A DNA stretch of 47,067 nt from assembly GCA_035939775.1 (NCBI GenBank), contig DASZFO010000308.1, positions 1 through 47,067 of the forward strand, written 5' to 3'. The DNA comes from Pirellulales bacterium (GTDB taxonomy: Bacteria > Planctomycetota > Planctomycetia > Pirellulales > DATAWG01). This document shows positions 3,946 through 41,162 of this stretch, piece after piece. The notes beneath the pieces are model-generated. The model was not told where the DNA came from and searched no databases. It saw only the letters and a list, made by a program, of their open reading frames with translations. Position 1 is the first letter of the stretch. Each line of letters starts with the position of its first letter. The translations under genes were made by a program, and so were the position numbers.

Positions 3946-5505
3946 ATGTCTGAGAATGCGGTTGAAAACCTGTTGGCGCGATTGGCTGGGCGCGGTGGTG
4001 ATGCGGACGCCGATCCCTATTCCGTCATTGCCGCCACCGAGCCCGACCACACTGCTCCCAAGGCCGCGGCCGTCCAGCATGCGGAAAAGGCGCGGCAAGA
4101 CAAGCTCGATCAACTCCTCGGCCGAATCGCCCAATTGACCGGCGCCGCCACTGCGGCCAATAACCCGACCGCCGTTGGCGCGACAAACGGCGCCGATGCT
4201 CCGCCGGAGCCCGCTTCCGGCGAGGGATCCGCGCCGGCAACTGTGAACGAATTCTTTCCCGCCGAACCGACCACCCTGGTGCAAGCGAAGCTGACGGAAA
4301 GCGACGTCGAGGATCTGGTGTTCAAGTTTCTCTTGGCCCGCGGCGACGCGAGCGGCCGAGACATTGCCGAGCAGATCAAGCTGCCGTTTATCCTGCTCGA
4401 GGAACTGCTCCGAGTATTGAAGTCGGACCATTGGATCGTCCATCGCGGCGCCGCGGCGATGAACGACTATCAATATCAGTTGACCGACAAAGGCCGCGAG
4501 CGGGCGCGACGGCTGGTGGAACACTGCACGTACTACGGTTCGGCCCCGGTCGCGCTGAGCGATTATCTCGCCTGCGTGGCCGCTCAATCGCTGACCATGC
4601 AGCATCCCACCACGGACGACTTGAGTCGCGCGTTCGACGATTTGTTGATTAATCCGCGGATGCTGGCCCGGCTCGGGCCGGCGATCAACTCCGGCCGCGG
4701 ACTGTTTCTCTACGGCGCGGCCGGCAACGGCAAGACGAGCATCGCGGAGCGGGTCACGCGGGCATTCGGCCAGTTTATCTGGGTCCCTCGCTCCATCGGC
4801 ATCGACGGCGAGATCATCCGCCTTTTCGATCCGAGCAACCACGAAGAGGCGCCCCTGGAGAGCACCGGCGGGCTGCTCGATAATCGGAAAATCGACAAAC
4901 GCTGGATTCGCATCCGCCGGCCGACGATCGTTGTCGGTGGCGAGTTGACGATGGACAATCTTGAAGTCGTGCGCAACACCTCGACCGGCACTTGCGAAGC
5001 CCCGATGCAGCTCAAAAGCAACTGCGGCACCCTGGTGATCGACGATTTCGGCCGACAACGGATGAGCACCGATGAACTGCTGAACCGCTGGATCGTGCCG
5101 CTGGAAAAGCGATTCGACTTTCTCAATCTGCCCAACGGGAAGAAAATCCAAGTCCCATTCGATCAGTTGATCATCTTTTCGACGAACTTGCAGCCCCGCG
5201 ACCTGGTCGATGAAGCTTTTCTGCGACGCATTCCCTACAAGATCGACGTGATCGATCCAACCGAGGACGAATTCCGCCGACTATTCGAAATCGTGGCCCC
5301 AAAACTGGGCTTCGAATATCGAGAAGAACCGGTCAATTATCTCATCCAGCAGCACTATCTTGCCGCGGGCCGGCCGTTCCGCAATTGCCAGCCCCGCGAC
5401 TTGCTCATGCAAGTGCGCAATCGTTGCTTCTATGAGAAGCGCACCCAGGAATTGACCAAAGAGAATTTCGACATGGCGGTCGAAAACTACTTCGCGATGA
5501 TGTGA
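3946..5505 (+). CDS. AAA-family ATPase with N-terminal winged-helix region
   Basis: The product has 519 residues. Residues 1-100 are Ala/Pro-rich and probably disordered. Residues about 105-195 have a winged-helix look ([20 protein letters not shown], then [19 protein letters not shown] and a [11 protein letters not shown] segment). The ATPase core follows: Walker [10 protein letters not shown] from residue 257, Walker B TLVIDDFG with aspartates 366-367, a sensor-like IIFSTNLQP, and an arginine-rich [10 protein letters not shown] that may hold the arginine finger. Proteins of this make-up occur across planctomycetes, sometimes near pilus assembly genes, but none of those genes is visible here. 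The substrate is unknown. The gene stands alone, ending convergently with dcd across a palindromic element. The ATPase call is secure; any role is not. Confidence 0.88.
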
Positions 5506-5528
5506 TCGACTCTCGAACGTAAGAACAC

Positions 5529-5618
5529 CTAACAAATCCGGCCAGGGAGAAGGGGACAGTCCCCATTTTGCTGCGCGGTCTCCGCAAAAGGGAGATAGTC
5601 CCCGCCCGGATTTGTTAG
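5529..5618. repeat. Palindromic element, intergenic copy
   Basis: The outer arms CTAACAAATCCGG (5529-5541) and CCGGATTTGTTAG (5606-5618) are a perfect 13-base inverted repeat. Inside lie GGAGAAGGGGACAGTCCCC (5546-5564) followed by ATTTTG, then CAAAAGGGAGATAGTCCCC (5585-5603). The core closely matches the element inside the HD-domain gene at 39850-39926, while the outer arms are different. It sits between the converging 3' ends of the AAA ATPase and dcd and may act as a terminator. Confidence 0.85.
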
Positions 5619-5623
5619 CTGTT

Positions 5624-6199
5624 CTAATGCGATCGTTCCATGCCGAATTCGAGCTGCAGTTGCAGGTCGTCGTCGCGCTGGGGATTCAGCTCCTTGAAGA
5701 GCAAGCTCGGCTGGATATCGTGATTGTGTTGATACTTGTCGCTGACGTATTCGATGATCTCGCCGCATACTTGATGATAGAAGATTTGGCAGATCGGCAC
5801 GCCGGCATAAATCCGCACCGGCTGTACGGCGAACATCTCGAGCGTCCAGTAACCGCAGAAGCCGACGTCGCCGAAACCGGCGGTGACGTGCACGAATAGC
5901 CCCAGCCGTCCCACCGACGACCGCCCCTCGATCATCGGCACATGGTTGTGCGTTTCGGTGCGCTCGATCGTGCGACCCAAATAAAGCTGATTCGGACTGA
6001 GAACCAATCCCTCGGGCGGAATCTCGATGCGGCGCACTCGGTTCGCGCGCCGCATGTCGAGCACCACTTCCTCGTACGTCATCAATTCGTGGTGCAGCGT
6101 GAGGTTGTAACTATTGGGATTGAGATTCGCGTCGTCGAACGGATCGATGACGATGTTCTCTCCCAACTGCTTCCGAATTTCTTGGCCGGTGAGAATCAT
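5624..6199 (-). CDS. dcd: dCTP deaminase
   Basis: The enzyme deaminates dCTP to dUTP, the first step of the Gram-negative route to dTMP. The 191-residue length is standard. Typical segments are visible: PNSYNLTLHHEL near residue 29, EGRSSVGRLGLFVHVTAGFG with the family's catalytic-site signature, followed by VGFCGYWTLEM holding the glutamate that activates water, and GVPICQIFYHQ in the trimer core. The protein ends QLEFGMERSH. Its start ATG is at 6197-6199, directly next to a GGGGCGAGG-type repeat. It stands as a single gene, convergent with the AAA ATPase and upstream of which nth runs in the same direction, about 95 bases away. The call is firm; a bifunctional dCTP deaminase/dUTPase cannot be excluded without structural comparison. 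Confidence 0.93.
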   Translation of the reverse strand: MILTGQEIRKQLGENIVIDPFDDANLNPNSYNLTLHHELMTYEEVVLDMRRANRVRRIEIPPEGLVLSPNQLYLGRTIERTETHNHVPMIEGRSSVGRLGLFVHVTAGFGDVGFCGYWTLEMFAVQPVRIYAGVPICQIFYHQVCGEIIEYVSDKYQHNHDIQPSLLFKELNPQRDDDLQLQLEFGMERSH

Positions 6200-32645: not shown

Positions 32646-33141
32646 TCGAGTTTTCTCCTGGACATGTCGTTTGTCCTTCGCAAGACCATGAAACGAAACA
32701 TTCCGTCGAGGCCCCCCTCTTCGCTCGTGACGGAAGGATTCGTTGATGCGGTCGAGAACCGCCGGTGTGTCGCACGGAGCGTGTGGCGGCAGCCGAAATA
32801 CGGCGAGGAGACTGCGGTCTTGTCGCGATGCGTCGTCCTTAACGCCGTCGGCTACCCCGCGGCGACAGCCGGGCAGGGTTCATGCCGATCGATCGAAATC
32901 CATTCCTGGCACTTCGCCGAAGGGAATTCCTTTTCCGTTAGCCTCGAAACATCCTTGTCGCAAGTCGCCGCGCGGCTTGCAAATCCGCGGCTGAGTCTAC
33001 AAACGCGCGTGGTGATCGCCAAGGATTTCCCTCATTTTGGAGGGATGCGCGAATGCAAGCACAACATGATGTGCTAGCAAGAGTTGCGGAAAGCGGCCGG
33101 CAAGCGGTATACAATGTTGAGGAACTCACGGACCGGTTTTG
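32646..33141. other. Intergenic region without a recognised gene
   Basis: No protein-like frame is seen on either strand. A plus-strand frame of 137 codons at 32664-33077 has a random composition and begins inside the leader of the GATase-like gene. The segment should contain that gene's promoter, which I did not locate. The adjacent inverted-repeat element begins at 33142. Confidence 0.45.
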
Positions 33142-33295
33142 TTTATGAGGAGACCAGGAATGCAGGAAACGACTTCAGATTGATCATGCAGTAGGTCAGG
33201 CGTCGTCGCCTGACTGCGGCTGATTCGGCGCTGGTCAAGTGTGCACGCATGACCTGCGAATCCTTACTCCTGCCTTCCTGGTTTCCTCATAAAAA
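33142..33295. repeat. TTTATGAGGA-ended inverted-repeat element, copy 1
   Basis: The left end TTTATGAGGAGACCAGGAAT (then GCAGGAA) at 33142-33168 and the right end at 33267-33295 (CTCCTGCCTTCCTGGTTTCC then TCATAAAAA) are near-perfect inverses. The middle carries GTCAGGCG/CGCCTGAC with a 4-base loop. The whole is about 154 bases. The ketosynthase start at 33308 is only 12 bases beyond the right end, so the element must supply that gene's leader or promoter. Related ends occur at 39274-39303 and 41080-41162. Confidence 0.85.
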
Positions 33296-39273: not shown

Positions 39274-39303
39274 CTCCTGCCTTCTTGGTCCCCTCATAAA
39301 AAA
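39274..39303. repeat. Right end of TTTATGAGGA-family element, copy 2
   Basis: The sequence CTCCTGCCTTCTTGGTCCCC (then TCATAAAAAA) is the same as the right end of the element at 33267-33295 with two changes. No left arm is found within 200 bases upstream, so this is a solo end or a decayed copy. The HD phosphohydrolase gene starts 112 bases further on. Confidence 0.7.
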
Positions 39304-39415: not shown

Positions 39416-40864
39416 ATGTCCTCCATCCGCGACTTGCCTGAGATTGCCGGGCTCGATGCGCGGCGGGGGATGGTGCGGATTCCGCCGGAAGTCGACGTGC
39501 CGCTCACGCCGCGGGTGCGGCGGCTGATCGATGCGGCCGATTTCCGCCGGTTGGCCCGGATCAGCCAGTTGGGGCTGGTGCCGCTCGTCTATCCGGCGGC
39601 GATCCACACACGGTTCGAGCATTCGCTGGGCGTCTATCGGACGGCCCTGCTGTTCTTGCAGCAGCTTTCGCACGACGAGCGATTCGCCGCGACGATCGGC
39701 CCGGCTGACGCGGAGTTGTTCATCGCGGCGGCGCTCCTGCACGACATCGGGCATTGGCCGTTCTGCCATCCGATCGAAGATATTCACCTGCCCGACGTGC
39801 CGCGTCACGAGTCGTTTGCCAACGGGTACTTGCTGGACGAGCCGATCCAAAAGCGGCCTGCGGAGAAGGGGACAGTCCCCTTTTGTTCCGAGGACTTCAC
39901 AAAAGGGGACAGTCCCCGGCCGCTTTCGGGCGAAATTGCCAACGTCTTGCGCGGCGAGTGGCACCTTGAGCCGCGCGACGTGGCGGCTCTGGTATCAAAA
40001 GAGGCAACCGACACCGCGCGTCCCGACACGAAATCGCGAATCCTTTCGAGCATGCTCTCCGGCCCTATCGACGTCGACAAAATGGACTACCTGCAGCGCG
40101 ACAGCCTGCACGCGGGGGTCCCGTACGGCCGCAATTTCGACCAGCAGCGGCTGATCGGCAGCCTTTGCTTGAACGAGGAGGGGGACGGGCTGGCGATCAC
40201 CGACAAAGGAAAGACGGCCGCCGAGATGATGGTCTTCGCCCGCTATGTGATGTTCAGCGAAGTCTATTGGCATCACGGCGTGCGCTCGGCGACGGCGATG
40301 CTCCAGCGGGCGTTTTACCAACTCCGCGGCGGGCTCGACCTGACGCAACTCTTTCGGCTGGCCGAAGCGCCCATGATCGCCGAACTCCAGCGCGCTGCCG
40401 TCAGCACACCGGCCGCGGAGCTGCTCGACGGGCTGTTCGGCCCGAGTCGGCGGCTCTACAAGCGATTGGCCCGTTATAGCCTCTTCGAGGAGGCGGACCT
40501 GTACCGACGGCTGGCGCGGCGGCCCTATCCTTGGCTCGTGCGCTGCGCTGAGCAGTTCGCGGCGCTCGCCGCCGGTGCGATTGGCCAGCCGATCGCCCCG
40601 CACGAGCTTCTCTTCGATGCCCCGCCTGTCGAGCGCGAGGTGGAATTCGATTTCGAGGTCTTCTTTGCGAAGGACCACCGCTACCGCCGGCTGGGCGAGA
40701 TTTCTCCGGTCGTGCGCACATTGGCCAAGGAGCAATTCGACGACTACGTCAAACGTGTCCGCATCTTCGCGCATCCGCGAATCGCGAACGAATTGCGGCG
40801 GCTCGGCAGGCTCGGGGACCTGCTCAATGCGGCAATCGATCGAACACCGGCATTGGGCGAGTAA
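39416..40864 (+). CDS. HD-domain phosphohydrolase with inserted peptide
   Basis: The 482-residue product is like dGTPase-type HD proteins: the beginning RDLPEIAGLDARRGMVRIPP, then RRLARISQLGLVPLVYPAAI, the metal His in HTRFEHSLGVYRTALLFLQQ, the HD pair in AALLHDIGHWPFCH, and a late SGPIDVDKMDYLQRDSLHAG with a fourth metal ligand. Such enzymes hydrolyse nucleotides or other phosphomonoesters; the substrate is open. Residues about 146-170 (KRPAEKGTVPFCSEDFTKGD followed by SPRPL) are encoded by a palindromic element (39850-39926) that keeps the frame; in homologues this place should be a short loop. The C-terminal part is helical with a conserved-looking SLFEEADLYRRLA. No operon partner is evident. 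Confidence 0.88.
   Translation: MSSIRDLPEIAGLDARRGMVRIPPEVDVPLTPRVRRLIDAADFRRLARISQLGLVPLVYPAAIHTRFEHSLGVYRTALLFLQQLSHDERFAATIGPADAELFIAAALLHDIGHWPFCHPIEDIHLPDVPRHESFANGYLLDEPIQKRPAEKGTVPFCSEDFTKGDSPRPLSGEIANVLRGEWHLEPRDVAALVSKEATDTARPDTKSRILSSMLSGPIDVDKMDYLQRDSLHAGVPYGRNFDQQRLIGSLCLNEEGDGLAITDKGKTAAEMMVFARYVMFSEVYWHHGVRSATAMLQRAFYQLRGGLDLTQLFRLAEAPMIAELQRAAVSTPAAELLDGLFGPSRRLYKRLARYSLFEEADLYRRLARRPYPWLVRCAEQFAALAAGAIGQPIAPHELLFDAPPVEREVEFDFEVFFAKDHRYRRLGEISPVVRTLAKEQFDDYVKRVRIFAHPRIANELRRLGRLGDLLNAAIDRTPALGE
39850..39926. repeat. Palindromic element inside HD gene
   Basis: Outer arms AAAGCGGCC (39850-39858) and GGCCGCTTT (39918-39926) are a perfect inverse. The inner part has GGAGAAGGGGACAGTCCCC then TTTTG at about 39862-39885, and CAAAAGGGGACAGTCCCC at 39900-39917. 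The core matches the intergenic element at 5529-5618 closely; the arms do not. It is read in frame in the HD gene as the KGTVPF...KGDSP peptide. Confidence 0.88.
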
Positions 40865-41079: not shown

Positions 41080-41162
41080 TTATGAGGAGTCCAGGAAACC
41101 TGGAGAGAGAGGTGACAATCGCAATCCACTACCTCCCTGTGCTCCTGGCTTCCTCATAAAAA
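41080..41162. repeat. TTTATGAGGA-ended inverted-repeat element, copy 3
   Basis: TTATGAGGAGTCCAGGAAAC at 41080-41099 and the right end at 41133-41162 (CTCCCTGTGCTCCTGGCTTC then CTCATAAAAA) are imperfect inverses, spanning 83 bases. The ends match copy 1 at 33142-33295; the middle is shorter and different. It is located 27 bases beyond the 3' end of the alpha-2-macroglobulin gene. Confidence 0.82.

Follow-up and report, generated by a model that had tools for sequence, protein, structure and literature searches.

A probable IS5-type palindromic element with a REP-like core lies in frame in unrelated protein-coding genes of a Pirellulales genome

In a draft Pirellulales genome (6.39 Mb, 384 contigs, 96% complete, 2.7% contamination), the gene of an HD-domain phosphohydrolase-like protein carries an in-frame palindromic insert that is very probably a copy of a Pirellulales MITE, with 20-bp terminal inverted repeats (TIRs), a TNA target duplication and a hairpin core, which would be moved in trans by an IS5-family transposase, translated and tolerated. 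The family has a high copy number, inverted-repeat ends and a TNA duplication, its insert in the HD gene is absent in orthologues, and copies within host genes retain the reading frame; we best read it as an IS5-type MITE with a REP-like core. The features in the 47,067-nt stretch of DNA that was analysed (henceforth referred to as 'the window') are collected in Table 1.

Table 1. Positions in the window of the two copies of the element, their parts and the host gene.
Feature	Position	Strand	Basis
Host gene, HD-domain phosphohydrolase-like protein, 482 aa	39416-40864	+	ORF; Pfam HD and HD_assoc_2; orthologues in 54 relatives
Inserted element, type B, 90 nt/30 codons, encodes EPIQKRPAEKGTVPFCSEDFTKGDSPRPLS	39839-39928	+	absent in all orthologues examined; ~90% identity to dispersed copies
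Left TIR, type B, GAGCCGATCCAAAAGCGGCC	39839-39858	+	5 mismatches vs family consensus GAGCCTATCCGAGAACCGCC
First core motif GGGGACAGTCCCC, encodes KGTVP	39868-39880	+	exact match
Second core motif GGGGACAGTCCCC, encodes KGDSP, one frame over	39905-39917	+	exact match
Shortened right TIR GGCCGCTTTCG	39918-39928	+	9-bp pairing with left TIR; family copies run on to ...GGATAGGCTC
Target duplication TAA, left of intergenic copy	5520-5522	+	sequence; TNA duplication family-wide
Intergenic copy, type A ends (GAACACCTAACAAATCCGGC...), between convergent ORFs	5523-5624	+	covariance model 94.4 bits; sequence
Core motif GGGGACAGTCCCC of intergenic copy	5552-5564	+	exact match
Second, diverged core motif GGAGATAGTCCCC of intergenic copy	5591-5603	+	2 mismatches
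Target duplication TAA, right of intergenic copy	5625-5627	+	sequence; TNA duplication family-wide

The ORF of the HD protein, whose PDB relatives are HD phosphohydrolases and SAMHD1, reads through the element. An orthologue was found in 54 of the 56 relatives searched (57 genomes including its own), and all 54 are without the insert: the match ends near residue 141 and restarts near residue 170, and the two halves are adjacent in the DNA. Direct alignment with 29 orthologues places FANSFLLE immediately before GEIADVLR where the window has FANGYLLD, the inserted peptide and then GEIANVLR. The insert is also missing from the orthologue (L035) of genome G001, which belongs to the same family and to a different, sister genus, and from 80 further HD homologues in named planctomycete records. 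Since the orthologues, including that of G001, are without it, the insert can be delimited to 90 nt and is young. The earlier note on this DNA had described a 77-base element with a perfect 9-base stem, lying in frame and adding about 24 residues. The stem is indeed exact (AAAGCGGCC at 39850-39858 pairing with GGCCGCTTT at 39918-39926) and the frame was correctly read, but the element is 90 nt long, beginning with a full 20-bp TIR and ending in a shortened one, and the orthologue alignment corrects the addition to 30 residues. The segment 39850-39926 folds far better than shuffled sequences (z of -6.0 as DNA and -5.1 as RNA), and the copy is ~90% identical to several dispersed copies over 85-89 nt; Rfam returned no match anywhere in the window.

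The AlphaFold2 model of the HD protein, which was made with 35 homologues, has a mean pLDDT of 87 and a pTM of 0.88. Low confidence is found mainly in the insert (residues ~142-171; block means 30-57), which connects helix 131-139 to helix 173-181. The HD insert is therefore predicted to sit at a helix-helix loop; its low confidence is partly trivial, because no homologue covers it. Together with the relatives and homologues that are without the insert, the model supports, at the level of sequence and predicted structure, the earlier proposal that a non-autonomous repeat can enter coding DNA and be tolerated as a translated loop.

The element is one of a large dispersed family. The genome contains 214 occurrences of the 15-mer AAGGGGACAGTCCCC and 0 of the reversed control, and a covariance model built from 21 copies recovered at least 150 copies, which together exclude chance; a profile search of most of the listed copy loci gave 185 copies or fragments. 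The core is 50-52 bp long (68-70 bp in some copies), contains the GGGGACAGTCCCC motif twice, at a spacing of 37 or 39 bp, and is framed by 20-bp TIRs of several sequence types, namely type A (GA(A/G)CGCCTAACAAATCCGGC), type B (GAGCCTATCCGAGAACCGCC), type C (GAACCCCTCACAAAACCGCC) and a rarer fourth type. The HD copy is of type B with its right end shortened, and the intergenic copy is of type A with TAA on both sides. This second copy, which had previously been placed at 5529-5618, is real and shares the core, although its TIR type differs. Together with its target duplications (5520-5627) it lies between convergent ORFs (3946-5505 on the plus strand and 5624-6199 on the minus strand). A terminator-like hairpin coincides with its core motif, and the CTA at 5624-5626, made up of its right end and the duplication, is the TAG stop of the dCTP-deaminase-like minus-strand ORF. 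We also considered whether stems that differ between copies yet pair within them reflect targets that were already palindromic before insertion, and rejected this since the TIRs fall into a few recurring types and the HD site is found in orthologues without extra sequence. Another dispersed repeat, TGGTTTCCTCATAAAAA-like, is present in the window at 33140-33295, 39286-39302 and 41146-41162; it has ~30 copies in the genome at up to 2 mismatches (control 0), several of them as inverted pairs ~50-215 bp apart, and looks like another small MITE family.

The ends of the family link it to IS5-type transposons. Among the copies listed, 131 have both ends within 4 mismatches, and 53 of these have identical 3-bp flanks (20.8 expected, maximum 34 in 1000 shuffles), chiefly TAA/TAA and TTA/TTA, with none identical at 4 bp; the flanks are thus identical in only 40% of the listed copies with both ends, and in many the two flanks have different bases at the centre of TNA. 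A TNA duplication is that of the IS1031/IS427-type members of the IS5 family. The arms within a copy match better than arms shuffled inside the same type, as expected if each copy is born with matching ends. The TIRs were compared with those of IS5-family elements of the same order: one (L239), bounded by TGA on both sides, begins with GAGCCTATCCGGAAAC and finishes with GTTTCCGGATAGGCTC, matching type B, and another (L252), bounded by TAA, begins with GGAACTCTAACAAAACC and finishes with GGTTTTGTTAGAGTTCC, matching types A/C. A third DUF4096 element of the order (L254) has the end TTAGAAGCACTAACAAAACC, and DUF4096 occurs in 97 of 196 genomes of the order. The IS1031/IS427-type group is described in a paper on Paracoccus. 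In the draft genome itself there is no intact IS5-family transposase and no PF13340 (DUF4096) match, and a search for DDE_Tnp_1 (PF01609) gave four partial matches only and no intact parent. Measured against IS5-family MITEs, the family therefore has the shared TIRs and the 3-bp TNA duplication and lacks a cognate transposase in the genome; the latter is not strictly required of a MITE, since sources may be lost or unassembled. Because no intact transposase is present in the draft, we infer mobilisation from relatives: most likely the family was moved in trans by an IS5-family transposase that has been lost or is unassembled here.

To identify host proteins, each copy was examined for a frame that is open through the element with long flanks, and Pfam was run on 40 such ORFs. 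A strict set was defined by a domain spanning the insert or by domain support on both sides, with assignment by Pfam, PDB and relatives. Among the copies listed, this set holds 12 host genes from unrelated protein families: the HD protein of the window, KdpA, QueC, a TIM-barrel AP_endonuc_2 protein, ZnuA, a second HD/dGTPase-like protein, PabB/TrpE, an HtrA-like PDZ protein, a GT2/TPR protein, a TgpA/transglutaminase protein, a YchF-like GTPase and dihydrolipoamide dehydrogenase. The insert adds roughly 24-40 residues per host protein, and the peptides are mainly two readings, the EPIRKRPAEKGTVPFCSEDSTKGDSPRRFS kind on one strand and the ESLSENRRGLSPFVESSEQKGTVPLSAGGSRIGS kind on the other, the intragenic ones being of the KGTVP/KGDSP or RGLSPF...KGTVPL kind. 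The recurrence of the peptide, which the earlier note had suggested, thus holds within the genome, where peptides of this kind are encoded by 11 or more further genes that are unrelated and have Pfam support. It also holds, more sparsely, in the sister genus, and across the order the core is patchy, with the 15-mer in 28 of 296 genomes and weak model matches in 18 of 294. Contrary to the outcome that the earlier note had named as refuting, the peptide is missing from the HD orthologues examined and copies occur elsewhere in the genome.

Comparisons with proteins that are without the element locate the insert in several hosts. In the G001 dihydrolipoamide dehydrogenase (LpdA) the sequence runs on without a break at the place of query residues 134-159, and the match of this host to PDB 2eq7 leaves off at residue 135 and resumes at 165. 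The HtrA-like protein aligned to DegP has a 34-residue gap, equal to 99 + 3 nt, and KdpA and PabB/TrpE have gaps at the element that are longer than the element alone; QueC had no match in the PDB. The HtrA-like host (L113:551-3133, plus strand) has NNYGG where GNSGG is expected in DegP-type proteases and may be a pseudoprotease. In the PabB/TrpE ORF (L127, 714-2531, minus strand), residues 9-88, upstream of the PabB/TrpE domains, match dozens of places in the same genome and consist of a copy of a CCTCATAAAAA repeat and a further repeat around GGTGCCATGCCCACGGCTCGGCGTGGGCATG. A candidate ABC-F gene (L114) was kept out of the strict set, as its upstream half is without coding support, and ORFs with domain support on one side (e.g. 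L119, L129, L188, L152 and L153) entered only a looser length test.

This looser set comprises 23 intragenic candidates, 10 of which keep both ends; nine of the 10 have a length of 3n (99, 117 or 138 nt), compared with 36 of 121 other full copies among the copies listed (Fisher p = 0.0003). In the strict set all four full copies are 3n, each of 99 nt (p = 0.013). The candidates were picked for a frame that stays open across the element, and this criterion favours a 3n length without forcing it by itself. The full elements are open in 3.84 of six frames, compared with 2.98 for shuffled sequences. Among the copies listed, both ends are intact in 10 of the 23 intragenic candidates compared with 121 of the 162 others (p = 0.006), so many intragenic copies, the HD copy included, are trimmed. 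Since full intragenic copies are so often 3n, it appears that frame-preserving insertions survive, and this conservation of frame suggests that the inserts are translated, with selection against frame breaks.

In the mechanism that we propose, an IS5-family (DUF4096, DDE) transposase would bind the ends and move the element in trans. The type B 99-nt form with its 3-nt duplication would add 102 nt (34 codons); as stop codons are scarce in this form and the peptide it encodes is polar and probably unstructured, a copy that inserts at a protein loop would be translated and not be disruptive, and frame-breaking or core-disrupting insertions would be lost by selection. Most copies probably give the protein nothing useful, and the inserts are most likely selfish DNA that is tolerated at loops. 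That they are instead kept as useful, with the peptide altering the regulation or interactions of host proteins, seems to us improbable. Inserts are indeed retained in conserved enzymes, dihydrolipoamide dehydrogenase and KdpA among them, where the frames are open and the peptides recurrent; yet the hosts have unrelated functions, the peptides come from two readings on opposite strands, the HD and LpdA inserts, both checked in the sister genus, are absent there, and the trimming of many copies looks like tolerance. It is considerably less probable still that the palindrome never reaches the protein because it is cut out of the mRNA or skipped by ribosomes (in an intron- or byp-like manner): the predicted RNA hairpin is very stable (-46.6 kcal/mol), which would suit such a process, but intragenic copies are 3n and have no stops in the host frame, which matters only if they are translated, and these lengths and the open-frame figures favour translation over splicing or bypass. 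The view that KGTVP...KGDSP belonged to the HD protein from its ancestor onwards as a normal segment, with the palindrome there by coincidence, is already refuted by the orthologues and by the identity of the insert to dispersed copies.

The core raises a separate question about mobility. The GGGGACAG found in both core motifs fits GGGGWSAS, the motif of the repeats (TIRs) that flank TIR-associated tyrosine transposase (TIRYT) genes (PMC3733652), and core-like hairpins that do not have IS5-type ends are present in other members of the order and phylum. Four matches to Y1 transposases lie in the genome, and planctomycetes and acidobacteria are the main groups with class 3 Y1 enzymes (PMC6006769). 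All of this would suit a palindrome of REP/TIRYT type that a Y1 (HUH) tyrosine transposase moves via single-stranded DNA, with the outer repeats being just part of the hairpin. We nonetheless regard this as unlikely, as a TNA duplication and IS5-like ends are unexpected for IS200/REP-type movement and the element flanks a Y1 gene at none of the four Y1 loci of the genome, one of which (L197) has a single GGGGACAG, 68 bp from the gene and on one side only. The fit of the core to GGGGWSAS, the core-like hairpins without these ends and the want of a flanked Y1 gene instead lead us to a tentative reading, less probable than not, of the family as a mosaic: a REP-like (HUH-type) hairpin core may have been captured by, and exchanged among, several IS5-type MITE ends, and its 3n-long, stop-poor form may, in some Pirellulales, keep generating new loops in proteins, a few of which have perhaps been put to use. 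In other genomes of the order (L265, L269, L271 and L272), GGGGACAGTCCCC also occurs as inverted pairs ~50 bp apart with AAAA/TTTT flanks and without IS5-type ends; these families are a different repeat built on the GGGGACAGTCCCC motif.

Three known systems resemble the family in part. Rickettsia palindromic elements (RPE) are in-frame palindromes in unrelated genes (Ogata 2000, 2002, as related in PMC10969869 and PMC3733652). The present family is likewise made up of dispersed palindromic repeats of roughly 100-150 bp that lie in frame in functionally unrelated genes (12 domain-supported hosts, with the 3n excess among full intragenic copies) and are presumably translated, whereas it differs in phylum, GC content and core, has recognisable IS5-type TIRs and a TNA duplication, and has most of its copies outside genes. 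By analogy of organisation and placement, and not by sequence homology, we liken it to RPE as a planctomycete counterpart and do not file it as RPE. With IS5-family MITEs (IS1031/IS427-type ends) it shares TIRs near-identical to those of the DUF4096 elements of the order, the 3-bp TNA duplication and the lack of a transposase gene; unlike them, it has several TIR types around one conserved core, no cognate transposase in the draft genome and a frame-preserving 99-nt form found inside genes. With REP/REPIN and TIRYT-associated repeats it has in common the GGGGWSAS fit, the hairpin core and the high copy number, but it is bounded by IS5-type TIRs with duplications and the Y1 genes here are unflanked by it. 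No paper in the open-access literature searched mentions the KGTVPF or KGDSP peptides or the core DNA sequence. The element is thus known in kind; it is new as a family and, in the hypothesis set out above, as a mosaic.

Protein-coding palindromes have been described chiefly from Rickettsia, and the family provides a second case, in a GC-rich planctomycete, in which transposon ends and duplications are identifiable. It allows one to ask how often mobile DNA adds protein loops, and for conserved enzymes, dihydrolipoamide dehydrogenase and KdpA among them, it supplies before/after pairs in which a host protein that has the insert can be set beside one that lacks it. For annotation it is a warning that the KGTVP/KGDSP peptides of planctomycete proteins can be mobile-element sequence and not domains.
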